Shown one piece after another: positions 14,751-40,878 of a stretch of 64,000 nucleotides of DNA. The notes beneath the pieces are model-generated. The model was given only the letters and a program-made list of their open reading frames with translations, did not search any database and had not been told where the DNA came from. The position numbers were made by a program, and so were the translations under genes. The number at the start of each line of letters is the position of its first letter. The first letter of the stretch is position 1. The stretch is from a virus: positions 1 through 64,000 of IMG/VR virus record IMGVR_UViG_3300025168_014097; one strand, 5' to 3'.

Positions 14751-15132
14751 TTTGACTATCTCCTTTTTCGACTCTATAAGAGTCTTCTATTTTATCTTGC
14801 GTTGAGGTTTCAAAAATACAGCTATCTTCAAGAGCTTCTAATTGATGAGCTATACCTTGGTATATTGTTACAACATCACCTGCGTTTAATTCTTGTACAA
14901 CTTTATCTGCATTAGTAGGATCAATCCATGTGAATTTTAATTTGCCGTATCGTACAAACCACGTTTCATATTTATCAACATGATAGTGCATTGAAAACTT
15001 TTTACCTTTTTCAAATACTAAAAGCTTAGCACAATAGTCTTGATTGTTTTCGATGTGTAATTCATATCCCCAACCTTTTTTAATAAAAGATTCTTTACAT
15101 TTTGTTGCATTCCATACTATCGGTTTTTCCAT
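14743..15132 (-). CDS. Cupin protein, sugar-phosphate isomerase-like
   Basis: This 129-residue single-domain cupin carries the metal-binding first motif FSMHYHVDKYETWFV (two His and Glu) near residues 46-60 and the second motif GDVVTIYQGIAHQLEA near residues 85-100. It resembles the C-terminal cupin of mannose-6-phosphate isomerase-type proteins. Inside a sugar cassette it could be a sugar-phosphate isomerase. It is the only isomerase-like candidate for a step otherwise done by GmhA, which is absent; that link is speculative. Confidence 0.65.
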   Translation of the reverse strand: MEKPIVWNATKCKESFIKKGWGYELHIENNQDYCAKLLVFEKGKKFSMHYHVDKYETWFVRYGKLKFTWIDPTNADKVVQELNAGDVVTIYQGIAHQLEALEDSCIFETSTQDKIEDSYRVEKGDSQNE

Positions 15133-15509
15133 TCTAATATCTCCGTTGTTGAGTATCCTTCTATTCTATCAAAGAATACTACTTCTTCTACATGTTGTTC
15201 ACCTACCACAGTTTGGCCTTTCCAATCTGATCCTATGACTAATTTACTAGCTCCTACTATATTTACGAGATCTTCCAATCCTTGGGTAGAGTCAAATACA
15301 AATACTCCATCTATATATTTTATAGATTCTAAAACTTCTTTTCTATCTTGCATATTATTAAAAGGTCTATCATCTCCCTTATCTTTTTTAACTTTTTCAT
15401 CTGAATCAATACCTACGTATAATTTAGATCCTAAGCTTTTGGCATATTTGAATAATTCAATGTGTCCTTTATGTAAGATGTCAAAACATCCATTAGTCCA
15501 AATTATCAT
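15117..15509 (-). CDS. hldC: HldC/RfaE C-terminal-like nucleotidyltransferase
   Basis: This 130-residue protein opens MIIWTNGCFDILHKGHIELF, with the HxGH (HKGH) nucleotide-binding motif of cytidylyltransferase-fold enzymes. It continues with VGIDSDEKVKKDKGDDRPFN and the end motif GYSTTEIL. This is the pattern of the ADP-heptose synthase domain (HldE C-terminus/HldC), which joins ATP to heptose 1-phosphate. ATG 15509 overlaps the kinase stop (ATGA), so kinase and nucleotidyltransferase are co-translated as split halves of HldE. Confidence 0.75.
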   Translation of the reverse strand: MIIWTNGCFDILHKGHIELFKYAKSLGSKLYVGIDSDEKVKKDKGDDRPFNNMQDRKEVLESIKYIDGVFVFDSTQGLEDLVNIVGASKLVIGSDWKGQTVVGEQHVEEVVFFDRIEGYSTTEILEWKNR

Positions 15510-16261
15510 ACAGTTGCTACTCCTTGTTTTTGTACCACTATTGTAGTGCATTCCTGTGCAAATTGGATAGCTTTGTCTATATTATTTGTGTTAATATATT
15601 CATATACCAATCCAGCTAAGAATGTATCTCCTGCTCCTGAGACGTCCTTTACAGGAACATCTGTTGTTGCATACATTCGGCCTTGATATTCACATCCATG
15701 CTTACCTTTCGTTACTATTAATTGTTTGTGTAGATTGGGATATTCTGACAGTTGCTTGGAATTCTTTTGATATTCTAAATGATTAATTTTAATATAATCC
15801 ATACCTTTACACCAACTACCTAATTCTTTTTTTGTATCTAAGAATGTGGGACACTTTGCTTTTTTACCTATATGAGCTATATCATAAAGTGTAAGAAATC
15901 CTTTATCATAATCCGATACTACTATAGCGTCATACTCTAAATCAAAATCTGTATTTATACAATTTTGCCAGTCTTCATTAAAGTCAATTGGCATGCATTC
16001 ATCATTTTCATCTACTCTAAGAACCATTTGGTTATATCGCTCGTCTACATATCTTATCTTTCTAATAGATTCTTTATTAGTAATTAAATCAACTGTGGCT
16101 CCTAGAGCTTTTAAATTAGCAACTACATTTCCTGCCATTCCTGGATTTGATTTTTTCTCTACTGGTACTAATACTGGTACTGGAGCTTCTGGAGCTATCC
16201 TTTCTATATCTCCATAGATAAATACATCTTCACAACTATCCCCTATAACTAATATTTTCAT
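15506..16261 (-). CDS. hldA: PfkB-family heptose-phosphate kinase (HldA/HldE N-terminal-like)
   Basis: This 251-residue ribokinase-fold protein has MKILVIGDSCEDVFIYGD at the start, NPGMAGNVVANLKALGA near residue 39 and the catalytic DVSGAGDTFLAGL near residue 205. The motif set and the directly following HldC-like gene point to D-glycero-D-manno-heptose 7-phosphate kinase. It is shorter than the ~310 residues of the E. coli kinase domain, mostly in the middle. It would phosphorylate the C1 position before nucleotidyl transfer. Confidence 0.7.
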   Translation of the reverse strand: MKILVIGDSCEDVFIYGDIERIAPEAPVPVLVPVEKKSNPGMAGNVVANLKALGATVDLITNKESIRKIRYVDERYNQMVLRVDENDECMPIDFNEDWQNCINTDFDLEYDAIVVSDYDKGFLTLYDIAHIGKKAKCPTFLDTKKELGSWCKGMDYIKINHLEYQKNSKQLSEYPNLHKQLIVTKGKHGCEYQGRMYATTDVPVKDVSGAGDTFLAGLVYEYINTNNIDKAIQFAQECTTIVVQKQGVATV

Positions 16262-17043
16262 ATGCTCAAATTCTTTCTATATTCTTTTGTTCCTTCTTCC
16301 ACTGTCCAATTTGGCTCCCATCCTGGCATAAATTTTAATCTGTCTGCTTTAGTGTAGAATTGGTACCAACCAGGTATTTTATCTGGAGTGTGATAAGTAT
16401 ATGATATTTCCATTCCTTCTACTAAAGATTCAAAAGTTTCTGCTTTACCCGTACCTACGTCAAATACTCCGCGTTCTAAACTCATTGCATGTAAGTTTGC
16501 ATGAACAATGTCTGCTATATATACAAAATCCCTCTTTGGATTTTTTGGAAACAATTTAAACTTTCCTGCTTTATGTGCTTGATATGCTACTGATGCCATT
16601 TTACCCTTTTCATGTTCACCTGGACCGTATACATTAAAATATCTTAACGCTACAAACTTCTTACATGCTTGCAATCCATACTCCTCTGCTAATAATTTCG
16701 ACCAACCGTATATGTTATTTGGAAGGCCATCATTTCCGTAACAAGCAGCGGAGCTAGAATATACAACTTTTTTCTTATATTTCCTAGCTAAATCAAATAA
16801 TTTTTTGCTTGTTGTATAATTCCAATACAACATATAGTTTGGATCTTGTTCAGTTGTATCTGATATTGCTCCTATATGGAATATACCATCACACTGTTTA
16901 ACCATGCTTTCCAAAGCTAGCTCATCTTCCCATGTCTGTTTGTCTTGATGTATTTGCCATGCATAATCACCTCTCGATTCGAGTGTTTCTAATACAGCTT
17001 TTCCTACAAATCCTTCTGCTCCAGTTACTATGAATTTTGCCAT
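16258..17043 (-). CDS. hldD: ADP-heptose 6-epimerase (HldD-like SDR)
   Basis: This 261-residue protein has the Rossmann motif FIVTGAEGFVGKAV at the start, HIGAISDTTE near residue 55, catalytic YGWSK near residue 112, and LRYFNVYGPGEHEKGKMASV near residue 134. WYQFYTKADRLK lies near the end. These are hallmarks of HldD, which inverts C6 of ADP-heptose. I chose ATG 17043; the frame can extend to a TTG at 17055. With the kinase and nucleotidyltransferase just downstream it forms a three-gene heptose unit. Confidence 0.8.
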   Translation of the reverse strand: MAKFIVTGAEGFVGKAVLETLESRGDYAWQIHQDKQTWEDELALESMVKQCDGIFHIGAISDTTEQDPNYMLYWNYTTSKKLFDLARKYKKKVVYSSSAACYGNDGLPNNIYGWSKLLAEEYGLQACKKFVALRYFNVYGPGEHEKGKMASVAYQAHKAGKFKLFPKNPKRDFVYIADIVHANLHAMSLERGVFDVGTGKAETFESLVEGMEISYTYHTPDKIPGWYQFYTKADRLKFMPGWEPNWTVEEGTKEYRKNLSI

Positions 17044-17420
17044 GATATTTCCCAATCTTTAAAATCTGCTGCTAAGCAATCTATTTTATAATCTTTTCTT
17101 CCACCAACTTTTTCTTGGATCATATTTTTTGCAGTATTTCTAATACCATTTAATCCGTGTGTTAGCTCGAGATTATTTCCATCTTTGAGACCTTTTCTAT
17201 AGTTTGATTCATTGTGCCATATATGTAAATTCATTTGTGAAAGCACTACGACAGCTCTAATCAATTCTGCATCTATTCCTTCTAACTTAATATCGTGCAT
17301 AATATCTTGAATTTCCTGAGCATATTCTTCTTTATGATCTGGAATAAATACTTCTTTTAATTGTGCTATTGATAGCCTATCTATTAATTCTGATAGTGTT
17401 GGTAAATATTTTCTACTCAT
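17028..17420 (-). CDS. Conserved-looking helical protein within sugar cassette
   Basis: This 130-residue protein begins MSRKYLPTLSELIDRLSIAQ and is helical, with a HIWHNESNYRKGLKDG segment. The opening looks like a family I associate with sugar-gene islands of phages, but I cannot name it. ATG 17420 overlaps the upstream stop as ATGA. The position between the Gmd-like and HldD-like genes suggests a role in nucleotide-sugar metabolism or in glycan assembly. Confidence 0.5.
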   Translation of the reverse strand: MSRKYLPTLSELIDRLSIAQLKEVFIPDHKEEYAQEIQDIMHDIKLEGIDAELIRAVVVLSQMNLHIWHNESNYRKGLKDGNNLELTHGLNGIRNTAKNMIQEKVGGRKDYKIDCLAADFKDWEISWQNS

Positions 17421-18376
17421 ACTCGCTTTCTCCAATATTCTAGTAAATCGTTCCATATATCATCCATCGTTTTTTCTGGCTTCCAATCATAATGACTTTT
17501 AAATTTAGATGTATCAGGTATCTGTAGTGTTATATCAGTTGGTCTCATTCTTTCAGGATCTTGAATTTTCTTGAATGGTTTATCTGATTTTGATATTAAA
17601 GCATCTAATGCTTCTCCTACTAAACACGATTCATCACCGCCTATATTATATACCTCACCTGGTCTTGGAAATTCTGAACATAGCCAATACGCCTTGATCG
17701 CGTCATCTATATGATTATAGGTTCTAACAGAATTTAAGTTTCCATGTCGTACTTCATATATTCCATTTTTCTCTCCTTTTGCGATTTGACGTGCAAACGA
17801 TGATACTGCAAATTCTTTTCCTCTTCTAGCTCCTTCATGACTAAACATTCGAGTAGTTATAATTTTCATTCCAAACGCTTTGTGATAATATTGAGACATT
17901 AAATCATGTCCTACTTTCGATATTGAATATGGATTAGCTGGTCGAATTGGATTATTTTCAGTTATTGGAATTTCATGTGGTTCTGGATTACCATATACCT
18001 CACTTGTAGACACACTTATTATAACCGGATCCATTTCATTTGATTTTATTGATTCTAATAAATGAGTTGTTCCCAATACATTTGTATGCAATGTTACAAT
18101 TGGATTTTTGAAGCTAGATTCTGGAAAACTTTGAGCTGCAAAGTGAAATACTTTATCCGGTTTGGATAGCTTAATCGCTCTATCAATACTAGCATAATCC
18201 ATTAAATCGCCTCCATAAAGTACAACTCTCGGATTGTCGATTAGATGCTCTATATTTGTAGTATCTTCCATCCATCTTTTAAACCCATAAATTTGATCAT
18301 CTGTGTGTTCCAGAATATAGTCTGCCATATGGCTACCTACAAATCCTGTAATGCCTGTGATAAATATTTTACTCAT
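17417..18376 (-). CDS. GDP-mannose 4,6-dehydratase-like SDR
   Basis: This 319-residue protein has ITGITGFVGSHMADYIL at the start, FHFAAQSFPESSF near residue 75, NVLGTTHLLE, the Ser-Glu-Val-Tyr-Gly strand, catalytic NPYSISK near residue 145, and TRMFSHEGARRGKEF near residue 170. The end RPTDITLQIPDTSK matches GDP-mannose 4,6-dehydratase (Gmd) and its GDP-6-deoxysugar relatives. Product would be a 4-keto-6-deoxy sugar or heptose. I chose ATG 18376, overlapping the RmlC-like gene by eight bases; the frame extends to 18454 without support. Confidence 0.75.
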   Translation of the reverse strand: MSKIFITGITGFVGSHMADYILEHTDDQIYGFKRWMEDTTNIEHLIDNPRVVLYGGDLMDYASIDRAIKLSKPDKVFHFAAQSFPESSFKNPIVTLHTNVLGTTHLLESIKSNEMDPVIISVSTSEVYGNPEPHEIPITENNPIRPANPYSISKVGHDLMSQYYHKAFGMKIITTRMFSHEGARRGKEFAVSSFARQIAKGEKNGIYEVRHGNLNSVRTYNHIDDAIKAYWLCSEFPRPGEVYNIGGDESCLVGEALDALISKSDKPFKKIQDPERMRPTDITLQIPDTSKFKSHYDWKPEKTMDDIWNDLLEYWRKRV

Positions 18377-18851
18377 TTTTATCTCTTCCCCATAGAATTG
18401 GATTATTATGTGGCCATTTGAAATTCCACGATGGATCATTCCAATGTACAACAAATTGATTTTCTATATCATTATAAGAACCCTCAAACGCTTGCTTGTA
18501 ATGGAACGTGCATGTATCACTTAATACAAAATGACCATTTGCACAACCTGGAGGAACCAATACTTGTTTTCTATTAGCATCTGATAATACAAACCATTCT
18601 GATTCACCGTAGGTTTCTGACTCCTTACGACAATCAGCTACAACTAGATAGAATTCACCCTGCACACAATTGATCAGCTTCCATGTTTTATCATCACCGT
18701 GTAATCCTCGCAGTACATCTTTTTTAGAATGTGAAAACTTATCCAATCTCCAATTCAAATCTGGATAATCATCACTGGTCCACGTTGTGTATATGTCTCC
18801 ACGAAAGTCTTCATGATGAGTTGGATTAAAAGTTTTTAGATCTTGAATCAT
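18369..18851 (-). CDS. RmlC-type keto-sugar 3,5-epimerase
   Basis: This 160-residue protein shows HHEDFRGDIYTTW near residue 12, the hallmark SKKDVLRGLHGDDKTWKLI near residue 42, GEFYLVVADCRKES near 68 and VPPGCANGHFVLSD near 99. This is the dTDP-4-dehydrorhamnose 3,5-epimerase family, which epimerises 4-keto sugars at C3 and/or C5. Placed between a Gmd-like dehydratase and a reductase-like SDR, it fits the dehydratase, epimerase, reductase order seen in 6-deoxyheptose pathways. ATG 18851 overlaps the upstream stop (ATGA). Confidence 0.8.
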   Translation of the reverse strand: MIQDLKTFNPTHHEDFRGDIYTTWTSDDYPDLNWRLDKFSHSKKDVLRGLHGDDKTWKLINCVQGEFYLVVADCRKESETYGESEWFVLSDANRKQVLVPPGCANGHFVLSDTCTFHYKQAFEGSYNDIENQFVVHWNDPSWNFKWPHNNPILWGRDKNE

Positions 18852-19756
18852 GCAACTACCTCTTCTGATACATTCTCCAGATACCACTCAATGGTTTTAC
18901 GGACACCTTCTTCAAAACTAGTTTGTGGTGTGAATCCATATTTTTTTGCTCGACTTGTATCTAATACTCTTCTCATATCACCTTCTGGTTTTTCTGGCGA
19001 ATATTCAATAGTTCTATCAAAATAATTAGCTACTATTTCAGCCACAGCTTTGATTGATATACCATGTCCGCTAGCTAAGTTTACTGGTTCAGTAACTTTA
19101 TTTTCTACCATATGAATCATTCCCTGAGCTACATCTTCTGAATAGATTAAATCTCTAACGGGTGCGCCAGTTCCCCAAACGTTTAGTATTTCATTCAAAT
19201 GTCCTTTCTTAATTAAAGATGGAACAACCATTGAATGCTCACCAAAATTATCATGCGGTCCATATACATTTGCAGGTCTTACTATTGATACTTTATTCCA
19301 ATCGTTTTCAATTGCATATGCTTGTGCTTGCAATTCACCCATTCTCTTTGCCCAAGCTGGGAATGTATCATTTTTTGTAGGAAATGTTTTCCACACATCA
19401 TCTTCGGTTAATACTTCAGCTTGCTCATATACTCCAACAGAACTTGTATACAAATACCATTCTACTCCTGCATCTTTAGCAGCTTCCATCATATTAGTGT
19501 TAAACTGTAACATTGGTACAAAGTATCTTGCTGGTTTTTCTACAGCTGTTTGTGGACTACCTTTGATACCTGCTAGATGCATTACGATATCCATTCCTTT
19601 ACATATTTCTTGACATACACATCTTTCTCTTAGATCTGTTGGTAGGTCTGTTGGATATACACGTGCACCTTTTTCTTGTAACATTTTTACTAATGATTTT
19701 CCAATCATTCCGTTAGCACCCGTTACTAATATTTTTTTATCTTTTAAATTTATCAT
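18848..19756 (-). CDS. Extended SDR, GDP-fucose-synthase-like, without the usual catalytic Tyr
   Basis: This 302-residue protein has ILVTGANGMIGKSLV near residue 9, VMHLAGIKGSP near 57, TSSVGVYEQAE near 104 and RPANVYGPHDNFGEHSM near 160. The overall plan is that of GDP-L-fucose synthase (Fcl) and related 4-keto-sugar reductases. At the YxxxK site it reads FPAWAK (about residues 131-136), so Pro occupies the Tyr position and a Phe lies one residue before. The enzyme may be inactive, may use another residue, or may be a binding partner. The domain looks otherwise intact. Confidence 0.7.
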   Translation of the reverse strand: MINLKDKKILVTGANGMIGKSLVKMLQEKGARVYPTDLPTDLRERCVCQEICKGMDIVMHLAGIKGSPQTAVEKPARYFVPMLQFNTNMMEAAKDAGVEWYLYTSSVGVYEQAEVLTEDDVWKTFPTKNDTFPAWAKRMGELQAQAYAIENDWNKVSIVRPANVYGPHDNFGEHSMVVPSLIKKGHLNEILNVWGTGAPVRDLIYSEDVAQGMIHMVENKVTEPVNLASGHGISIKAVAEIVANYFDRTIEYSPEKPEGDMRRVLDTSRAKKYGFTPQTSFEEGVRKTIEWYLENVSEEVVA

Positions 19757-19760
19757 ATCT

Positions 19761-20543
19761 TTACTCTACTACAAAATAAGAAACTCTTGATGCAAATTTA
19801 TATCGTTTCAATGTTATATTATTCAATCCAAAAACTTCCATTAATGCTAATGTTTCACCTGGTGAATCTGGATCATTTAATTCATCAAAAGCCACTACAC
19901 TACCTTTTGTAAGTCGTGGTCTGATTGCTTCCAAACACTCCTTGGTAGGTTTATATAAATCAAAATCAAAATATGCTAATGATATGATAGTCTCTGTATT
20001 GTCTTCTAGGTATTTATGTATTGTTTTAGTTGCATCACCTTTTACTAATTCAAATTTCTTAATATGTGATAAAGGATTATCATCCTCAATATTCTGGACT
20101 ACTTTGGATAAGTATTTATCATAGTCATCTGTAAGTGCTAATCCTCCTTCAACCATCAGAGATGATTCGCCATCTTCTGGTGTAATTTCTGGAAACCCTT
20201 CGAAGGTGTCAAATGCTACTATCTTTTTATGTCTATTGAAAGGTTCGTATATACCACGGAGGGCTGCAAATAATGCTGCATTGTGTCCCCATCTAGTCCC
20301 AAGATCCATCACAATACCATGTACATCAATTTGTTTTTGATATATGTGATTCATAAATAAAATCCTAGATAGATTTTTTGAATTTAAAAATAATCCTAGA
20401 TTTGGTAGTACTTGTTCTTTCGGTATCGGACATTCTCTCAATAATTCGTATAATTCGAGTCGTTTCTTTGTTTCTAATTTATTCTCATACTCACCATAAA
20501 AAGGGTCTTGGCCGTTTGCATGCTTTGTGTTGTTGTCAGTCAT
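19761..20543 (-). CDS. TylF/macrocin-O-methyltransferase-like SAM enzyme
   Basis: This 260-residue protein has the SAM-binding GIVMDLGTRWGHNAALFAAL near residue 75 and KIVAFDTFEGFPEITPEDGE near residue 106. A VKGDATKTIHKYLEDN segment and the metal-binding-type SLAYFDFDLYKPTKECLEAI follow near residue 190. These match the TylF family, which O-methylates sugars. A methylated sugar in the phage glycan is a reasonable guess. ATG 20543 is preceded by AAAGGAG with seven-base spacing. Confidence 0.75.
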   Translation of the reverse strand: MTDNNTKHANGQDPFYGEYENKLETKKRLELYELLRECPIPKEQVLPNLGLFLNSKNLSRILFMNHIYQKQIDVHGIVMDLGTRWGHNAALFAALRGIYEPFNRHKKIVAFDTFEGFPEITPEDGESSLMVEGGLALTDDYDKYLSKVVQNIEDDNPLSHIKKFELVKGDATKTIHKYLEDNTETIISLAYFDFDLYKPTKECLEAIRPRLTKGSVVAFDELNDPDSPGETLALMEVFGLNNITLKRYKFASRVSYFVVE

Positions 20544-20562: not shown

Positions 20563-21666
20563 TTATTTTTCCCAAACTAGTGCTGGGATTTCTTTGTTCC
20601 ATCCAAAAGCTATTACCCAAGCCCAAAATCTTAACCTACCTTCGATCAAATCAAATTGAGTATCGTTTACACGCTTGAGCCTGATAGGCTTTAGGAATAT
20701 TCCTTGTTCTATTTCTTCTGATAATTCTATTGGGGATGGCGTCATTCCCATTGCATTTTCTTTTGCTTCTTCTATTGTTTGATATACTTTACGATTGTAG
20801 TCATTAGAAACTCTAATCTGCTTTGTATCTATATTTCTTGTCGGTGTTACCAACTGTACTGACATTGATTCATAATCATGGTCTGTTAATTCTATATCAG
20901 CTGATTTTGCATTTTCCAATGCACGTGATGGTTTTGACGTATTTGGGATTACTATTACGTTTGGATCTTGTATCAACCACCTTAAAACTATTTGTCCTGG
21001 AGTACATTTATATTTCTCTGAAAGAGCATTTAGATATTCTGATTGGTATGATCCATTTGCCAACTTTCCTTGTGCTAATGGACTATATGCGATGAGCTTG
21101 ATATCATTATTTTCACAGAAGGGTAATATGTCCTTCTCTACTGACCGTTCAAAAAAATTATATTCTGCTTGTATGCAAGCTAAGTGATGACCTTCAGAAG
21201 TTAATGCAGTAACCGCATCTTGTGCTTCTGATAGTAGAAAATTACTGACACCTACATGTCTAACCTTCCCTTCCTTTACTAAAGTATTCATTGCTCTCAT
21301 CGTTTCACTAATTGGGAAATTTGGATTTGGCCAATGTACTTGGAATAGATCGATTCGGTCTGTTTGCAATCTTATAAGACTATCTTCAGCTGATTTTATA
21401 ACACCTTCGTATGTAGTATCGTTTGGAGATACTTTACTTGCTAAAAATACTTTTTCTCTACCTATTTTTTTCAATGCAGATCCCAATAAAGTTTCAGATA
21501 ATCCATCTCCATATACTGGTGCAGTATCTATAAAATTTACACCATTATCTACAAAGCATGATAGTGTTAGGTCTAGATTCTTTCCATCTTCCTTATCTGG
21601 TAGGTGGAATCCAGTACCAAAACCTATTGCAGAGACGCTATCCGATCCTAAGTTACGATAAATCAT
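20563..21666 (-). CDS. Aldo/keto reductase fused to a C-terminal ParB-like domain
   Basis: The first ~280 residues of this 367-residue protein form an aldo/keto reductase: FIDTAPVYGDGLSE (catalytic Asp and Tyr) near residue 45, FLASKVSP (Lys) near 75 and FQVHWPNP (His) near 108. SNFLLSEAQ, AYSPLAQGKL and PNTSKPSRALEN (NADPH site) follow. The last ~60 residues read PIRLKRVNDTQFDLIEGRLR then FWAWVIAFGW and EIPALV, the plan of ParB/Srx-fold domains (I.L..I....Y.LIEGRHR). I know no standard family with this fusion. A link to sugar-keto reduction comes from context. Confidence 0.75.
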   Translation of the reverse strand: MIYRNLGSDSVSAIGFGTGFHLPDKEDGKNLDLTLSCFVDNGVNFIDTAPVYGDGLSETLLGSALKKIGREKVFLASKVSPNDTTYEGVIKSAEDSLIRLQTDRIDLFQVHWPNPNFPISETMRAMNTLVKEGKVRHVGVSNFLLSEAQDAVTALTSEGHHLACIQAEYNFFERSVEKDILPFCENNDIKLIAYSPLAQGKLANGSYQSEYLNALSEKYKCTPGQIVLRWLIQDPNVIVIPNTSKPSRALENAKSADIELTDHDYESMSVQLVTPTRNIDTKQIRVSNDYNRKVYQTIEEAKENAMGMTPSPIELSEEIEQGIFLKPIRLKRVNDTQFDLIEGRLRFWAWVIAFGWNKEIPALVWEK

Positions 21667-22559
21667 TATATATCTCTAATCTTAGTAATTATTGAATCAA
21701 CATCTATTCCATATTTTTGATGTAGCCATTTTCTATCTCCATACTCAAAATATTGTTTATCTTCCAATGCTATCCTTTTCAGTTTAATAGAGAGGTTATT
21801 GTCTGTGATGAACTCGCTGATTGCACTACCAATTCCACCAGTTATTGAATTTTCTTCAATGGTGATAATTTGTCGAGCGTGATATATTAATTGTTCTAAA
21901 TTATTTGGTAATGGACTTATTCTAATTAAATCTATCAATCCATACTTTAATTCCTTTGCAACTTCTAATGCTACATGAGTCATGTATCCAGTACTTATAA
22001 TAACTGTATCATCAAATTCGCGTATTTCATTTGCAGCTTCACATCCATCCGTATACAATTCTGGGAATGTTCCTTTATCAATTCTTACATAAGCTGGTGA
22101 TGAATTGTTATAAACTTTTTGTGCACAATCTTTAGCTGACTCAGCATCGGATGGGTTAAAAATTTTCATCTCAGGCATTACTCTCATAACACCTATATCA
22201 TGTATTGCATGATGAGTTGGTCCATCTTTGGAAAATGACAATCCTGCTCCACATCCTATTATAGTAACATCTAAATTCATACTACATATATTTGCTTTTA
22301 TATGCTCATAACACCTCATTGTAATGAACGGAATTATAGAATACACGAATACTTTTTTTCCAGCTAACGCTAACCCAGTTGCTATTAATACCATGTTTTG
22401 TTCTTGTACACCCACATTTATGAATTGGTCTGGAAAATCTTTTTTATATTTTCTAATACTGAACGCATCTGCATCCGCCGTTATGAATACTACGTTTTTA
22501 TCTTTTGCTGCAATATCATATATTTCGTCGAAGAAAGCATCTCTAATATCTATACCCAT
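21666..22559 (-). CDS. Transketolase C-terminal half (pyrimidine-binding and C-terminal domains)
   Basis: This 297-residue protein opens with a short helix then VVFITADADAF, and carries INVGVQEQNMVLIATGLALAG across residues 47-67, including the catalytic Glu that activates TPP. FSKDGPTHHAIHDIGVMRVM near residue 110 and a C-terminal domain follow. It pairs with the next upstream gene, the N-terminal half, as in split archaeal-type or antibiotic-cluster transketolases. The two overlap by ten bases and should make a heterotetramer that moves two-carbon ketol units. Confidence 0.8.
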   Translation of the reverse strand: MGIDIRDAFFDEIYDIAAKDKNVVFITADADAFSIRKYKKDFPDQFINVGVQEQNMVLIATGLALAGKKVFVYSIIPFITMRCYEHIKANICSMNLDVTIIGCGAGLSFSKDGPTHHAIHDIGVMRVMPEMKIFNPSDAESAKDCAQKVYNNSSPAYVRIDKGTFPELYTDGCEAANEIREFDDTVIISTGYMTHVALEVAKELKYGLIDLIRISPLPNNLEQLIYHARQIITIEENSITGGIGSAISEFITDNNLSIKLKRIALEDKQYFEYGDRKWLHQKYGIDVDSIITKIRDI

Positions 22560-23371
22560 TTTAGAATCTCCTCTTTTAATTCTACTTCAGCTAAATCAAA
22601 TTCTTCATCTGTTGGAACAGAGTGGTGCCATTTTATTCCAGATTCCATAAATGAAACTCCTTTTCCTTTTACGGTGTCTGCTATAATAACTGTTGGTTTA
22701 TTTATTTTTAGATATCGGTGTTCTAAGCCATGACATATTGAATCGTGATTATGGCCGTCTATTGTTTCAACATTCCAACCACAAGCTGTAAATTTTTCTT
22801 CAAGATTATCATTTTCGATAAAATCTGTAACGGATAGTCTATTTCTATCAACAATCACAGTCAAGTTAGTTACATTTTTCTGAGCTGCAAACATGACGGA
22901 CTCCCAAATGGATCCTTCTTCACATTCTCCATCTCCCACTAAAGAATACATGTGTTGATCTGGTTTTGCCATAGCTAATCCAGTTGCAATTCCAATCGCA
23001 TGTCCGAGTGATCCAGTGTTTGTTTCTACTCCTGGTATATTAAAGTCTAATTGTCCACCATAAATACTACCATCAATTCCATACATTGCTATTTCAGATT
23101 TAGATATGATTCCAAGATCAGCTAAGATTGCATATATTCCCAAACACGCGTGTCCTTTACCTACTATTAATCTATCCCTATCTTCCCAATCTGGATCGTT
23201 AACTCTGTAGCAAAATGCACTTGGTCCGTAGTACAAAGCTACTAATATATCCATACAAGAATATATTCCTCCAAAATGTCCGAGTCGAGCTTGTTTTATC
23301 ATTTCCAAAACTTTTAATCTCATCTCAGCTGATTTTTTCTGCAAACTTCCTGTTGGATATAAATTATCCAT
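22550..23371 (-). CDS. Transketolase N-terminal half (TPP-binding domain)
   Basis: This 273-residue protein has ARLGHFGGIYSCMDILVALY near residue 28, VGKGHACLGIYAIL near residue 70, NTGSLGHAIGIATGLAMA near 113 and the TPP/metal motif LVGDGECEEGSIWESVMFAA near 139, ending in DRNRL. All key His and the GDG...N residues are present. It forms one enzyme with the following gene. Transketolase makes sedoheptulose 7-phosphate from pentose phosphates, the precursor of the heptose made by the HldA/C/D-like enzymes in the same cassette. It could also transfer ketol groups to a keto sugar. Confidence 0.8.
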   Translation of the reverse strand: MDNLYPTGSLQKKSAEMRLKVLEMIKQARLGHFGGIYSCMDILVALYYGPSAFCYRVNDPDWEDRDRLIVGKGHACLGIYAILADLGIISKSEIAMYGIDGSIYGGQLDFNIPGVETNTGSLGHAIGIATGLAMAKPDQHMYSLVGDGECEEGSIWESVMFAAQKNVTNLTVIVDRNRLSVTDFIENDNLEEKFTACGWNVETIDGHNHDSICHGLEHRYLKINKPTVIIADTVKGKGVSFMESGIKWHHSVPTDEEFDLAEVELKEEILKWV

Positions 23372-25026
23372 TATACATTTCCTCCAAAAGGTTCTATAAT
23401 TTTTTGATTACAGTCACAAACAACTTCTACCAACATAGGTGTATTAGTTGAAAATATTTTTTTAAGATCCGATTCAATATTATTATAATCTTCAATAATA
23501 TAAAATGGCAACTCAAACGCTGCAGCTACTTTTTTAAAATTCAATACCGTATCATCATCTGTATATCTAGCACCAGTCATATCATCTTGCGATTTTCGGA
23601 TAGATGCGTATCCACCGTTATTTATTACAAATGTTTTTATGTTTAGATTGTTATACGATATAGTTCGCAACTCTTGTATATTCAATTCAATTGAACCATC
23701 TCCTACAATAGTAATTACCTGAGAGTCTGGTTGAGTTGCGCTAGCTCCTATGGATAAAGGTACTGCTAATCCCATACTATAAAAAGCTCCAGAAGTTAAA
23801 TCTCGCTGTCCTTGTTTTAGTTTAAGTGTTTGAGATACTGCATAATTAGAACTTCCCGCATCACTAACAAATACTGCATTTTCAGCTGCATACTTACTTA
23901 CAGTTTGTAAAAAACGGTATGAGTTTATTGGATTTCCTATCTGCTCTGTAGTTACAATTGGATTGGATGTTTGATATTCTTTACATGTATCTAACCATCC
24001 ACTATATCGATTCCACTCAGTGGTTTTTTCAATCTCTGAATTCAGCTCAGTCATAAATAATTTCAAATCAACTTGTAATGGAATATCAACTTTAAGACCT
24101 GGTTTTTTCATTTCAGTTTTATCAATATTTACCATTATTAGTTTTTTCACAGATTCAAAATAATTATACTCCGGACCTGCCTGTGCATGGGTTAGACTAG
24201 TTCCTAGAGCTAATACTAAATCACATTCCTTCATAATTTTAGATGATGATAAATTTCCTCTTATACCACCCATTCCAAAATAACACTCATCTTCATCTGT
24301 TAGAATATCATTAGCTAATCTTGCAGATATTGCTGGAATTCTCAATTCGTTCAGTAAGAATCTTAACTCGTCAATACTATCAGATGTTCTGACTCCTTGT
24401 CCAAATACAACCAAAGGTTTTTTACACTTACGCAGTTCAGTCAATACTTTTCCTATATTAATTTTTTTGCTTTTATGTTGATGTGGTTTAAATCCTTTTA
24501 AATTAGAGATATTGATTTCTTGTGATTGTACATCGAATGGAATATCTAACCAAACTGGTCCTGGTCTTCCTGTCGTTGCTTCGTGAATAGCTTTTTCTAA
24601 ATGAAATCGAATATCATTTGGATCATCAACACGAACTGCATATTTTGTTATATTTTTTACATTGTCAATAATATTGAATCCTTGAATACCAAATGTTCTA
24701 GCTTTATCTGATAACTGTTTAGTTCCTACTTGTCCTGATATTACGAGTACTGGTGCTGAGTCCACCCACGCTTCCGCTACACCACTAATTGCATTCGTTC
24801 CACCAGGTCCGGTTGTTGCTATAACAACTCCTACATCATTCAAAAGTTTAGAATATGCAGAAGCCATTCCAACAGCTGCAGCTTCGTGTCTTGCACAAAT
24901 ATATCTCATACCTTTTTGATGAGCAAATGCATCATCTAAGTATATAGAACCAGTACCCGAAAGCATGAATACATTCTTTACTCCATGATTATTTAAGAAT
25001 TCAGCTATAAATTCTGATGCATTCAC
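23371..25026 (-). CDS. Acetolactate-synthase-like TPP enzyme
   Basis: This 551-residue protein has the three-domain plan of acetolactate synthase and related enzymes. FMLSGTGSIYLDDAF comes first, then the catalytic Glu in ARHEAAAVGMASAYS near residue 50, ATTGPGGTNAISGVAEAW near 72, a central domain with GMGGIRGN, and the TPP motif TIVGDGSIELNIQELRTIS near 440 with VINNGGY. In sugar clusters such enzymes (for example YerE-type) add a two-carbon branch from pyruvate to a keto sugar. A branched sugar is therefore a good hypothesis; acetolactate or acetaldehyde chemistry are alternatives. Confidence 0.8.
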   Translation of the reverse strand: MNASEFIAEFLNNHGVKNVFMLSGTGSIYLDDAFAHQKGMRYICARHEAAAVGMASAYSKLLNDVGVVIATTGPGGTNAISGVAEAWVDSAPVLVISGQVGTKQLSDKARTFGIQGFNIIDNVKNITKYAVRVDDPNDIRFHLEKAIHEATTGRPGPVWLDIPFDVQSQEINISNLKGFKPHQHKSKKINIGKVLTELRKCKKPLVVFGQGVRTSDSIDELRFLLNELRIPAISARLANDILTDEDECYFGMGGIRGNLSSSKIMKECDLVLALGTSLTHAQAGPEYNYFESVKKLIMVNIDKTEMKKPGLKVDIPLQVDLKLFMTELNSEIEKTTEWNRYSGWLDTCKEYQTSNPIVTTEQIGNPINSYRFLQTVSKYAAENAVFVSDAGSSNYAVSQTLKLKQGQRDLTSGAFYSMGLAVPLSIGASATQPDSQVITIVGDGSIELNIQELRTISYNNLNIKTFVINNGGYASIRKSQDDMTGARYTDDDTVLNFKKVAAAFELPFYIIEDYNNIESDLKKIFSTNTPMLVEVVCDCNQKIIEPFGGNV

Positions 25027-25955
25027 TATTGGTCTCCTTTTGAAGTTCTTGGCGTCACACTATGTTTTGGCTCTGCTTTATTTTCTACTCTATCAGCTTC
25101 ATATTTCCACTTCGAATCACCTAATAACTTTTCTAATTCATCTTCCTTGATTTCATAGAAATTTTCTGATGCTGGGAAAACTCCACCTCTTACCTCATCT
25201 CTATATTGTTCTAACGATGATTTAATTAACTGTCCTGCTTCACAATATCTCTTTACAAATTTAGATTTAAAGTCCCAGAATAATCCTATTAAGTCATGCA
25301 TGATTACCAATTGACCATCTACTTCATCACCTGCTCCAATACCGTAAACTGGTATATCCAATTCTTTAGCTATCATTGCAGCTGGTTCTTTTGGCATTGC
25401 TTCTAACAATAATGCTGAGCATCCTGCTTCTTGTAAAGCTATAGCTTGATTAAGTACAAGTTCAGCTTGGTCAGCTGTTTTACCTTGCACTCTATATCCA
25501 CCCATTTTTGCTCTCGTATGAGGAGTCAATCCTAAATGACTCATAACCATAATCCCAGAATCGCATATAGCTTTAATTCTTTCTACCATTGCTCCTTCCA
25601 CTTTAACCATATCCATTCCCGCTTTTATAAATCTACCAGCGTTTTCTACTGCGCTTTCATTTGATATTTGATATGACATGTAAGGCATATCACCTATTAA
25701 AAATGCATCACTAGCACCTCTTGATACAGACTCTGCTGCTGATATCATTTGATCCATAGTTACTGGGATTGTTGTTTTATGACCTAATGTAGTCATCCCC
25801 AACGAATCACCAACTAGAATTACATCTACTCCTGCTCCATCTGCAATATATGCTTGTGGATAATCGTAAGCTGTTACAGCTACAGTTTTAATTCCTTCTC
25901 TTTTGTGCTTTCTCAACTTAATAATAGTTGTTTTTGTTTTGCTATCTGCTGCCAT
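25026..25955 (-). CDS. panB: Ketopantoate hydroxymethyltransferase (PanB)
   Basis: This 309-residue protein carries VAVTAYDYPQAYIADGAGVD, VILVGDSLGMTTLGHKTT (metal Asp) near residue 45, LIGDMPYMSY (metal Asp) near 85, MVKVEGA (metal Glu) near 116, GYRVQGKTADQA near 153 and the catalytic Glu in LLLEAMPKEPA near 183. These are the full PanB signature. PanB transfers a hydroxymethyl group from methylene-THF to 2-ketoisovalerate for pantothenate and CoA. The C-terminus has about 40 extra charged residues. In this cassette it might instead hydroxymethylate another keto acid. AAAGGAG lies seven bases before ATG. Confidence 0.85.
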   Translation of the reverse strand: MAADSKTKTTIIKLRKHKREGIKTVAVTAYDYPQAYIADGAGVDVILVGDSLGMTTLGHKTTIPVTMDQMISAAESVSRGASDAFLIGDMPYMSYQISNESAVENAGRFIKAGMDMVKVEGAMVERIKAICDSGIMVMSHLGLTPHTRAKMGGYRVQGKTADQAELVLNQAIALQEAGCSALLLEAMPKEPAAMIAKELDIPVYGIGAGDEVDGQLVIMHDLIGLFWDFKSKFVKRYCEAGQLIKSSLEQYRDEVRGGVFPASENFYEIKEDELEKLLGDSKWKYEADRVENKAEPKHSVTPRTSKGDQ

Positions 25956-25967
25956 GTTATTTCTCCT

Positions 25968-26498
25968 TTATTTATCGTTATAATGATCACCATACTCTAT
26001 TAGTAATGTCGATCCTTTCCTTTCATATGCCTTTTCAAATTCAGACACAATTTCTTTTGGTTCGTTTAATAGTACTATTTTTATTTCACCCAATATAGAT
26101 TGCAATGCTTCTGTATAATCTATAGTGTGTTGGACGCCTCCGTTCAATGGAGTCGTAGACCCAATTGAAGTTCTTATGATTACTTTTGGTTTCCAATTAT
26201 TCTCAGTCATTATTTGAAATTTATCTAAATGATTTACTAATTGATCCATTGCTCTCATTAGGAAATCAAACCGTGGATAGCAACTAATTGGCGTTAAACC
26301 TTCCAATGCCATACCAGTTGCTATACCCATTTGTACTTCTTCAAATACTGGCATTTCCAGTCTTTTATCTTCTGATACTGTACTTAATGTATTAAATATA
26401 GCATTGCCACTATACGATACTGATTGACCTAAAAAAATCGTATCATCTTTTTCAGCTAGCCATTCCATTGCTTTAATTATTTCGTCTTTATATTTCAT
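25968..26498 (-). CDS. Miniature E1 beta-like TPP enzyme subunit
   Basis: This 176-residue protein begins MKYKDEIIKAMEWLAEKDDT and has LEMPVFEEVQMGIATGMALE near residue 50, the E1-beta segment with the TPP-activating Glu. SCYPRFDFLMRAMDQLVNHL and IIRTSIGSTTPLNGG follow. It matches only the pyrimidine-binding domain of 2-oxoacid dehydrogenase E1 beta (normally ~325 residues); the C-terminal domain is missing. I chose ATG 26498; the frame to 26558 would overlap the alpha-like gene by 50 bases. It pairs with the next upstream gene. Confidence 0.7.
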   Translation of the reverse strand: MKYKDEIIKAMEWLAEKDDTIFLGQSVSYSGNAIFNTLSTVSEDKRLEMPVFEEVQMGIATGMALEGLTPISCYPRFDFLMRAMDQLVNHLDKFQIMTENNWKPKVIIRTSIGSTTPLNGGVQHTIDYTEALQSILGEIKIVLLNEPKEIVSEFEKAYERKGSTLLIEYGDHYNDK

Positions 26499-26508
26499 AA
26501 CATCTCTC

Positions 26509-27132
26509 CTAGAATAAAACCCAATTGCCAGTTCCGTGGTGTGGAAATACTCTATCATATTTATAATAAATTACATCCTCTGGAACATCTCTTTTTACAC
26601 CACCCCAAGTTTCGTCAGTTGGTGTGTTAGTACTCATATTATTATCTTCTACTACAAACTGTAATGGTAAATCAAAATTCTTTGCATATTTATATGCTTC
26701 ATAAAACAATCCACTTTCAAATGTCATATCACCAATGAAACACCAAGTCTTTCTATCACTTCCCATTTCTTTCTGAGCTTTAGCTGTACCTAATGCTATT
26801 GGAATAGTTCCTCCTACAATAGATGAAGTATACAGTTTTGGTTCTTTAGAATAAACACTCATACTTTTTCCACGAACAATTAGGTCCTTCAAGATTTCTT
26901 GATCGACACCGTGTAATAATGCGTGATAATGATTTCTCCAACTAGAGAATACCCAATCATCTGGGTGAACATATTGAAATATATCTATCAGATTATCTTC
27001 ATTCCCTCCTGATAAATGAACAGGGCCTGGTATTTTTCCAGCTTCATATATTAATTTAATATCTTCCTCAAAATCTATGAGATCTTTTGCTGTTAAGTTA
27101 ACATCTTTATGTTTTATCAATCCTGGCTTCAT
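26509..27132 (-). CDS. Miniature E1 alpha-like TPP enzyme subunit
   Basis: This 207-residue protein has the E1-alpha plan in short form: WRNHYHALLHGVDQEIL near residue 65, SSIVGGTIPIALGTAKAQKE near 103, and the TPP/Mg motif CFIGDMTFESGLFYEAYKYA near 131, ending VVEDNNMSTNTPT. Normal E1 alpha has 330-400 residues. Parts of the C-terminus used for E2 binding are missing, so a stand-alone decarboxylase or ligase that transfers an acyl or ketol group is more likely than a dehydrogenase complex. It precedes the beta-like gene by ten bases. Confidence 0.7.
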   Translation of the reverse strand: MKPGLIKHKDVNLTAKDLIDFEEDIKLIYEAGKIPGPVHLSGGNEDNLIDIFQYVHPDDWVFSSWRNHYHALLHGVDQEILKDLIVRGKSMSVYSKEPKLYTSSIVGGTIPIALGTAKAQKEMGSDRKTWCFIGDMTFESGLFYEAYKYAKNFDLPLQFVVEDNNMSTNTPTDETWGGVKRDVPEDVIYYKYDRVFPHHGTGNWVLF

Positions 27133-28127
27133 GTTAAGTATCCCTCTTTATTTTTATTATACCATTCTATAGTTTTTTTGATTCCTTCATCAATATTAAC
27201 TTCAGGCTTCCACCCTAACTCATCAAAAGCTTTTTGTGAATTAAGTGCTAATTTTGTATTAATGCTTGGCTTTGTCAAATCGTGAGTTATCGTCAGATTT
27301 TTTCCTGAGTGTTTTACTATTTTATTTACAATATCTTTTACCGAAATACTTGTACCATTTCCAACGTTATATAACTTGTATATAGATTTTTGCAAATTTA
27401 CAGCCTTATCAATAAAATTTACAACATCTGAAACATATAGTAGGTCTCGCTCAGTTGATCCATCTCCCCAAACTACCATTTCATCTCCTTCAGTTGCTTC
27501 CATTGCTTTTGTAATAGTTGCACCAAACATATGAGATTTTTCTAAATCGTATTTATCGTAAGGGCCGTAAGTGTTTGAATGACGTATGACAGTATGTTTA
27601 GTTCTTCCTAATTTAGAGTAAAATTCACACATTTTTTCTACATAAACTTTTGTCCACCCAACTCCAAAATATGCATCAAATATACCCTCATCTAATGAAA
27701 AATCCATCTCAGTTACTGGCGATCTTTCTGGATTGTACATTACTCCACAACTTAGAAATAAAAAGTGGCCAACATTATAATCATAACATGCTCGTAACAA
27801 TAATGAATTCATTACTGCATTGTCAGTAACATGTAGGTATGGCTTTTCTAATATATCCTTTGCTCCAGATGTATTTGCAGCTGCCATAATTACAACATCG
27901 TATTGTGGTGTACGCTTAAATACATGATCTATTCCTGATTGTGTTGTTATATCACATGAGAGATGTTGTTGACCAGTTACACCTTTATATCTCCACGGTC
28001 TAGTATTACATACAGTCCATACATCATATTGCTCTGGCTTAGATTTATAATAATTGTAGATGTTCATTCCCATGAATCCAGTTGCACCTACTATCAATAC
28101 GCTAGTTTTATCTTGTTTTTTACTCAT
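27129..28127 (-). CDS. Extended SDR, Fcl-like, with Val at the catalytic Tyr position
   Basis: This 332-residue protein has VLIVGATGFMGMNIYNYY near residue 10, VIMAAANTSGAKD near 80, FLSCGVMYNPE near 124, RHSNTYGPYDKYDLEKSHM near 184 and VVWGDGSTERDLLYVSDVV near 225. This is the Fcl/GDP-fucose-synthase style of nucleotide-sugar SDR. The YxxxK site reads FGVGWTK (about residues 154-160), so Val stands where related proteins have GYGW. A Tyr three residues earlier cannot take that place directly. It is the first gene after the promoter at 28153-28183 and thus heads the sugar-precursor operon. Confidence 0.7.
   Translation of the reverse strand: MSKKQDKTSVLIVGATGFMGMNIYNYYKSKPEQYDVWTVCNTRPWRYKGVTGQQHLSCDITTQSGIDHVFKRTPQYDVVIMAAANTSGAKDILEKPYLHVTDNAVMNSLLLRACYDYNVGHFLFLSCGVMYNPERSPVTEMDFSLDEGIFDAYFGVGWTKVYVEKMCEFYSKLGRTKHTVIRHSNTYGPYDKYDLEKSHMFGATITKAMEATEGDEMVVWGDGSTERDLLYVSDVVNFIDKAVNLQKSIYKLYNVGNGTSISVKDIVNKIVKHSGKNLTITHDLTKPSINTKLALNSQKAFDELGWKPEVNIDEGIKKTIEWYNKNKEGYLT

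Positions 28128-38939: not shown

Positions 38940-40878
<1,939 letters not shown>

Follow-up and report, generated by a model that had tools for sequence, protein, structure and literature searches.

The locus described here raises the question of why a marine virus should carry three different enzymes dependent on thiamine diphosphate (ThDP, also TPP) side by side with the hydroxymethyltransferase PanB. The window, that is, the whole stretch of DNA analysed, comprises the first 64,000 nucleotides of the 81,685 bp virus record IMGVR_UViG_3300025168_014097, whose genes include those for a phage DNA polymerase, a DnaB-like helicase, a UvsX-like recombinase, ribonucleotide reductase (RNR) and GroEL. 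Between window positions 21666 and 28127 the minus strand carries a tight operon encoding a short-chain dehydrogenase/reductase (SDR), a short E1alpha/E1beta pair, PanB, a TPP enzyme resembling acetolactate synthase (ALS) and a split transketolase. The clustering of the TPP enzymes with PanB was the starting point of the original prediction, made from the letters alone, and searches with Pfam and NCBIfam profiles confirm that every gene named there is present and intact, and that all run in one direction on the minus strand. The three TPP systems can be classified as YerE-like, E1-like (PF00676, PF02779) and transketolase (PF00456; PF02779 and PF02780). The answer proposed here, to which we assign a probability of roughly 0.6, is that the block represents a phage-borne pathway to a deoxy-sugar with a carbon branch, destined for a glycan that is either on a surface or phage-directed, in which PanB would make the donor and the YerE-like enzyme would be the ligase. 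Every chemical step of this pathway is one that we infer; its direct basis is the gene identities, the intact motifs, the constant pairing of two of the genes, the conserved gene order, the replacement of one gene by others and the counterpart operons in bacteria.

The block is neither a decayed remnant nor a set of chance neighbours, because a second virus, L325 (IMGVR_UViG_3300037963_006819), keeps the order SDR, E1alpha, E1beta, PanB, TPP enzyme and the two transketolase genes at 52-74% amino acid identity. The seven shared genes are followed in L325 by two other genes and then by SDR, RmlC-like and dehydratase-like genes, as in the window. The reading frames of L325 are open except at runs of N in the assembly, and the differences between the two viruses are greatest at third codon positions. 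Decay or chance neighbourhood is thereby ruled out, and neither unrelated operons nor decay in relatives, the two outcomes named beforehand as fatal to the original prediction, was found. The combination of three TPP enzymes occurs in two independent contigs, the window and L325, and in a further one, L018, which matches the window at 99-100% identity.

The TPP enzyme encoded at 23371-25026 had been described as acetolactate-synthase-like. A TPP enzyme it is, but it scores 324.6 bits against the model of biosynthetic ALS (TIGR00118), far below the cut-off of 538.35. Its best sequence match in the PDB is JanthE (8RPH), with 286 bits; the entry that follows scores 203. The predicted structure (mean predicted local distance difference test score, pLDDT, of 87) has the three-domain fold of ThDP decarboxylases, is nearer to JanthE than to ALS, and finds its best structural match in JanthE with a template modelling (TM) score of 0.93. 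With a profile built from 15 viral relatives, JanthE scores 607 bits, 5AHK from Pseudomonas protegens 453 and true ALS 387. A tree of 91 rows, made by a quick method and with JanthE on a long branch, splits the viral enzymes and JanthE from ten true ALS with 100% support in the Shimodaira-Hasegawa-like approximate likelihood ratio test (SH-aLRT). A true acetolactate synthase is thus ruled out by the cut-off, the structure match and the tree.

YerE-like enzymes decarboxylate 2-oxo acids and attach what remains to ketones, and in this way branch keto-sugars (PMC12247030). YerE itself forms yersiniose A from pyruvate and cytidine diphosphate (CDP)-3,6-dideoxy-4-keto-glucose, and ErwE, the erwiniose enzyme, rejects pyruvate and prefers 4-hydroxy-2-oxo acids (PMC12247030).

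The neighbouring PanB (25026-25955) matches its family over the whole length and passes the family cut-off (PF02548, 326 bits; TIGR00222, 284 bits against 207.55). The motif residues D50, D89, K118, E120, H140 and E185 do not vary among 60 viral sequences and 80 from bacteria, and we take them to include those that bind the 2-oxo acid and the metal in the known enzyme. Since these putative catalytic residues are unchanged, the enzyme probably transfers a hydroxymethyl group to a 2-oxo acid. The main viral clade is nevertheless separate from canonical bacterial PanB, the identity not exceeding 51% in the 80 loci that were kept, and 55 of the 60 viral copies have LGLTPH in place of LGLTPQ. There is also a divergent second group of viral PanB (L241, L251, L252, L257 and L267), which is paired with a YerE-like gene and has LGLTPQ as in bacteria.

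The viral PanB gene has a constant partner. A PanB-based search of IMG/VR found a TPP gene adjoining PanB in all 68 viral loci listed, the TPP gene coming first in 48 and PanB in 20, mostly with a spacing within about 20 bp; here and below, match lists are ranked by similarity and many contigs are fragments. The converse search with the YerE-like gene found PanB adjoining it in 53 of the 78 viral loci listed. A DegT-family gene that clusters with RfbH is present in 42 of 48 dereplicated PanB loci. The RfbH-like DegT member tested is closest to CDP-4-keto-6-deoxy-glucose-3-dehydrase; of the DegT members scored against the RfbH equivalog model, one exceeds the cut-off and the rest do not. In contrast to PanB of the pantothenate pathway, viral PanB adjoins a YerE-like gene and is without panC in the 30 viral records tested, many of them fragments. 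Among the phages of INPHARED the YerE-like enzyme has no close match (those found are 28-32% identical, the annotated ones being acetolactate synthases) and PanB matches reach at most 45% identity; the plasmids searched gave no match.

The pairing is kept even when the partners change. The PanB-paired ligases form four clades that are mutually 31-38% identical, whereas the PanB proteins paired with them show 67-81% identity from clade to clade. The ligase-clade label switches 13 times on a quick PanB tree, of which the well supported branches force fewer, and the loci L028 and L025 have PanB proteins that are 96% identical next to ligases from different clades. The adjacency of PanB and ligase seems to survive repeated exchange, an outcome that would be difficult to account for if the two did not act together.

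By combining these observations, it is possible to outline a route to the sugar. A dehydratase of the RmlB/GMD type (17417-18454), aided in many relatives by an RfbH-like 3-dehydratase, would convert a nucleoside diphosphate (NDP)-sugar into an NDP-4-keto-(di)deoxy sugar. PanB would move a hydroxymethyl group from methylene-tetrahydrofolate onto a small 2-oxo acid to give a 4-hydroxy-2-oxo acid, which would be 4-hydroxy-2-oxobutanoate if the acceptor is pyruvate and ketopantoate if it is 2-oxoisovalerate. The YerE/ErwE/JanthE-like enzyme would then decarboxylate this acid on ThDP and join the resulting acyl anion to the ketone of the sugar, creating a tertiary alcohol that bears a hydroxyacyl branch. 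Reductases, epimerases and a methyltransferase might tailor the product before glycosyltransferases use it. PanB is proposed as the donor maker for the ligase because its expected product belongs to the class of donors that ErwE prefers. The suggestion in the original prediction of branched-sugar synthesis is therefore well supported by the YerE/JanthE-like enzyme and by the RfbH-like and RmlB-like neighbours in relatives, but PanB is more likely to make a hydroxylated keto acid as donor than to hydroxymethylate the sugar itself.

The loci in which PanB is absent bear on this point. The families of HpcH/HpaI aldolases, NeuB-like proteins and aminotransferases make 2-oxo acids, and a gene for an HpcH/HpaI aldolase, a NeuB-like protein, a class I/II aminotransferase or a DJ-1 protein often flanks the YerE-like gene of such loci. 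After dereplication at 90%, a gene of these four kinds lies within three genes in none of 60 PanB loci and in 14 of 20 others; the Fisher p of 2.6e-11 is descriptive only, because the categories were chosen after the loci were seen. In three PanB-less loci (L248:5757-7665, L253:5623-7607 and L242:5768-7728) an HpcH/HpaI-like aldolase and then a 4Fe-4S (LdpA-like) protein are encoded directly after the YerE-like gene. As a tentative generalization, which we put at somewhat less than even odds, PanB-family enzymes may act as dedicated donor makers for YerE-like ligases, with marine phages swapping adjacent modules of donor gene (PanB, HpcH/HpaI, NeuB-like or aminotransferase) and ligase, and so diversifying the branched sugars of surface glycans.

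The naming of the donor categories with hindsight is one of several points that weigh against the proposed pathway. The DJ-1 genes found in the same slot are without obvious keto-acid chemistry. The motifs of PanB look canonical and may be compatible with ketopantoate synthesis. A C-terminal tail, PLEDM..P.L.REEF..NM, is common to JanthE and most viral copies (an observation of our own, with no published criterion behind it), but the ligases of the window, L028 and L325 are without it. Finally, the window virus differs from YerE-type clusters in having no RfbH partner, no RfbH-like gene having been found in its 81.7 kb record.

A different order of events is conceivable, in which the YerE-like enzyme adds an acetyl branch from pyruvate, as YerE does (PMC12247030), and PanB afterwards hydroxymethylates the methyl ketone or another carbon of the sugar. 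The type of product would be the same, but the unchanged residues for 2-oxo acid and metal, the roles of which are general knowledge, fit a keto-acid substrate rather than a sugar nucleotide, and genes that make keto acids flank the ligase where PanB is absent. This order is considered unlikely. Less probable is a product of another kind, such as a keto-acid ligand attached as an acyl substituent or a 3-deoxy-ulosonic acid, an acidic sugar, instead of a carbon branch on a deoxy-sugar. The original prediction had allowed for a keto-acid ligand, and NeuB-like genes do adjoin some YerE-like genes. However, YerE-like enzymes form carbon-carbon bonds with ketones (PMC12247030), and their genes usually keep company with those for dehydratases and RfbH-like proteins.

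A viral pantoate transferase from an oxygen-minimum zone has been interpreted as support for vitamin B5 and coenzyme A (CoA) synthesis (PMC8940887), and PanB and the ALS-like enzyme might likewise be metabolic helpers that supply valine, pantothenate and CoA. That the PanB of the window passes its family cut-off agrees with this view, as does the fact that the route to valine and pantothenate includes both ALS and PanB. The TPP enzyme, however, is not ALS, panC was found in none of the 30 viral records, and the genes sit among sugar and glycosyltransferase genes.

Bacterial counterparts argue in the same direction. The bacterial genomes sampled belong to Nitrospinota, Nitrospirota and Chloroflexota, and two of the Nitrospirota genomes (G505 and G761) contain a viral-type PanB that scores 476-479 bits against the viral profile, compared with 610-627 bits for typical viral copies. 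In both, the operon encodes an SDR, full-length E1alpha and E1beta, a GMD-like protein, a YerE-like protein, PanB, a C-methyltransferase-like protein and a further SDR, and the genes of the two operons are 64-86% identical to each other. G505 has in addition a canonical PanB at a separate site, at a distance of 2.2 Mb, and panC at yet another location. The viral-type copy of G505 groups with the main viral clade, apart from the canonical copy, in a tree whose deeper order is uncertain because a bacterial row sits on a long branch and five of the viral rows are divergent. No viral-type PanB was found in 251 Chloroflexota or 77 Nitrospinota genomes at an E-value of 1e-105; at this threshold typical viral PanB is recovered in a positive control, but the divergent subgroup of viruses represented by L241 and L257 is missed. 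YerE-like genes unaccompanied by viral-type PanB occur in three Nitrospinota genomes, and one of these genes adjoins an aminotransferase gene with 54% identity to its viral counterpart. An open frame of 862 residues in a Nitrospinota genome (L337:7737-10325) contains the YerE-like domain and has an N-terminal extension that is cupin-like in look. The absence of panC from the 30 records, the constant sugar context and the separate canonical copy in G505 together disfavour a role as a vitamin B5 gene, and the helper interpretation as a whole appears very improbable. Least probable, and already weakened, is the idea that a variable sugar island has gathered, as unrelated passengers, three TPP systems that have no pathway in common. 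Short E1 genes do usually lie apart from PanB/TPP genes, but L325 keeps the seven-gene order, and E1, YerE-like and PanB genes share an operon in two bacterial genomes.

The E1 pair had been called shortened, and rightly so. E1alpha (26509-27132; 207 residues; PF00676, 62 bits) aligns with the E1_dh model, which has 300 positions, only from 6 to 171, and its predicted fold (pLDDT 87.8) matches E1alpha of pyruvate dehydrogenase (PDH). E1beta (25968-26498; 176 residues; PF02779, 35.7 bits) is without Transketolase_C; it was listed as 25968-26558, but its start is probably Met21 at 26498, where a GGAGA ribosome site precedes the ATG and where relatives start. E1alpha has 194-236 residues in 79 of 80 viral loci, the exception being a fragment of 158 residues at the edge of its locus, and E1beta has 176-202 residues in the viral loci listed. 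As the lengths are so constant, the short E1 proteins represent a uniform family and not a product of decay. The short pair has at least 589 matches in viruses, among which the 80 loci contain an RmlC-like gene in 73 cases, an RfbH-like gene in 29 and PanB in only 2. The pair is widespread in viruses (L154-L233; L071:13983-15191; L072:14049-15194) and is fused in two cyanophages. The density of such enzymes, thought to be very unusual for a phage, is therefore rare only as the combination of all three, since IMG/VR contains many examples both of PanB with its TPP gene and of the short E1 genes. By analogy, the E1 pair most likely acts as a second, two-carbon (C2) branching enzyme of the alpha-KADH2 kind, a role less certain than that of the YerE-like enzyme. 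The role of the split transketolase is the least certain. It might perform ketol branching, or else supply heptose or pentose precursors; the heptose use is considered because heptose-type genes lie at 15117-17055. Its N-terminal pyrophosphate-binding (PP) subunit (22550-23371; PF00456, 111 bits) adjoins the TPP gene in L325 too, and the subunit with the pyrimidine-binding (pyr) and C-terminal domains (21666-22559; PF02779, 104 bits; PF02780, 67 bits) is also kept there.

From 28127 down to 17417 the minus-strand genes follow one another without real gaps, and as far as 18848 consecutive genes are separated by -10 to +19 bp. The first gene of the conserved block encodes an SDR resembling nucleotide-sugar epimerases and dehydratases (epimC; 27129-28127; PF01370, 127 bits), with a counterpart 61-63% identical at the equivalent position in L325. 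Beyond the transketolase lies an aldo/keto reductase (20563-21666; PF00248, 224 bits), possibly the reductase of the branch ketone, which has been replaced in L325, where no equivalent stands at that position. Its C-terminus extends about 100 residues past the Pfam match and is ParB-like in look (IEGRLRFWAW...IPALV). Then follow a methyltransferase-like gene (TylF/Methyltransf_24; 19761-20543; PF13578, 26.4 bits, at the cut-off of 26.3), possibly for a tailoring enzyme, and an SDR resembling nucleotide-sugar epimerases and reductases (epimB; 18848-19756; PF01370, 135 bits; 54-57% identical in L325). An RmlC-like cupin epimerase (18369-18887; TIGR01221, 96 bits, below the equivalog cut-off; 35% identical in L325) precedes the RmlB/GMD-type SDR, which resembles NDP-hexose 4,6-dehydratases (TIGR01181, 166 bits, and TIGR01472, 140 bits, both below cut-off) and is 46-48% identical to its counterpart in L325. 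The larger overlaps at these last two genes, which have TTG and GTG starts, are probably due to over-extended starts. The block is adjoined at 15117-17055 by genes for an HldE-like kinase, an adenylyltransferase and a heptose-epimerase-like protein, all below equivalog cut-offs and possibly forming a route to adenosine diphosphate (ADP)-heptose. Elsewhere in the window, the virus encodes a GroEL-like chaperonin (38940-40580; phrog_5725, 524 bits).

If the proposed pathway is correct, PanB, a textbook enzyme of vitamin B5 synthesis, gains a second role as a donor maker for branched sugars, the hydroxylated keto acids preferred by ErwE-type enzymes gain a genetic route, and the interpretation of viral pantoate transferase as a vitamin or CoA auxiliary gene (PMC8940887) would be corrected. 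As far as the literature was searched, a role in donor synthesis is unrecorded for the PanB family. Nothing usable was found there on PanB in polysaccharide loci or with 4-hydroxy-2-oxobutanoate, and the review of YerE-like enzymes does not mention a PanB partner (PMC12247030).

That review distinguishes three ThDP classes for the branching of sugars, namely the decarboxylase type, the E1 type and, as a proposal only, the split transketolases (PMC12247030), and the block in the window has a counterpart of each, which adds to the support for branched-sugar synthesis. The split transketolase of the window resembles those of miharamycin and amipurimycin, with a two-gene transketolase beside sugar oxidoreductases; branching by such enzymes is proposed and unproven (PMC12247030). 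The short E1 pair can tentatively be likened to the alpha-KADH2 sugar-branching enzymes of, for example, the aldgamycin and kibdelomycin clusters, the common feature being alpha and beta genes of the E1 type within a deoxy-sugar cluster, mostly accompanied by an RmlC-like gene. The viral subunits, however, keep only the PP and pyr cores without Transketolase_C, whereas those of the Nitrospirota counterparts are full length. The fused E1 proteins of the cyanophages S-SM2 and P-TIM68, annotated as transketolase central region, belong to the short E1 family (43-44% identity) and lie in nucleotide-sugar clusters, but their alpha and beta parts form one protein and no PanB or YerE-like gene was found in those loci. 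The ligase has its known relatives in YerE, ErwE and JanthE (PDB 8RPH, 8RPI and 8RPJ), with which it shares the same set of domains, and its viral relatives stand beside RfbH-like and RmlB-like genes. The reviewed literature describes such sugar-branching modules from bacteria; phages, it appears, carry and shuffle them as well.

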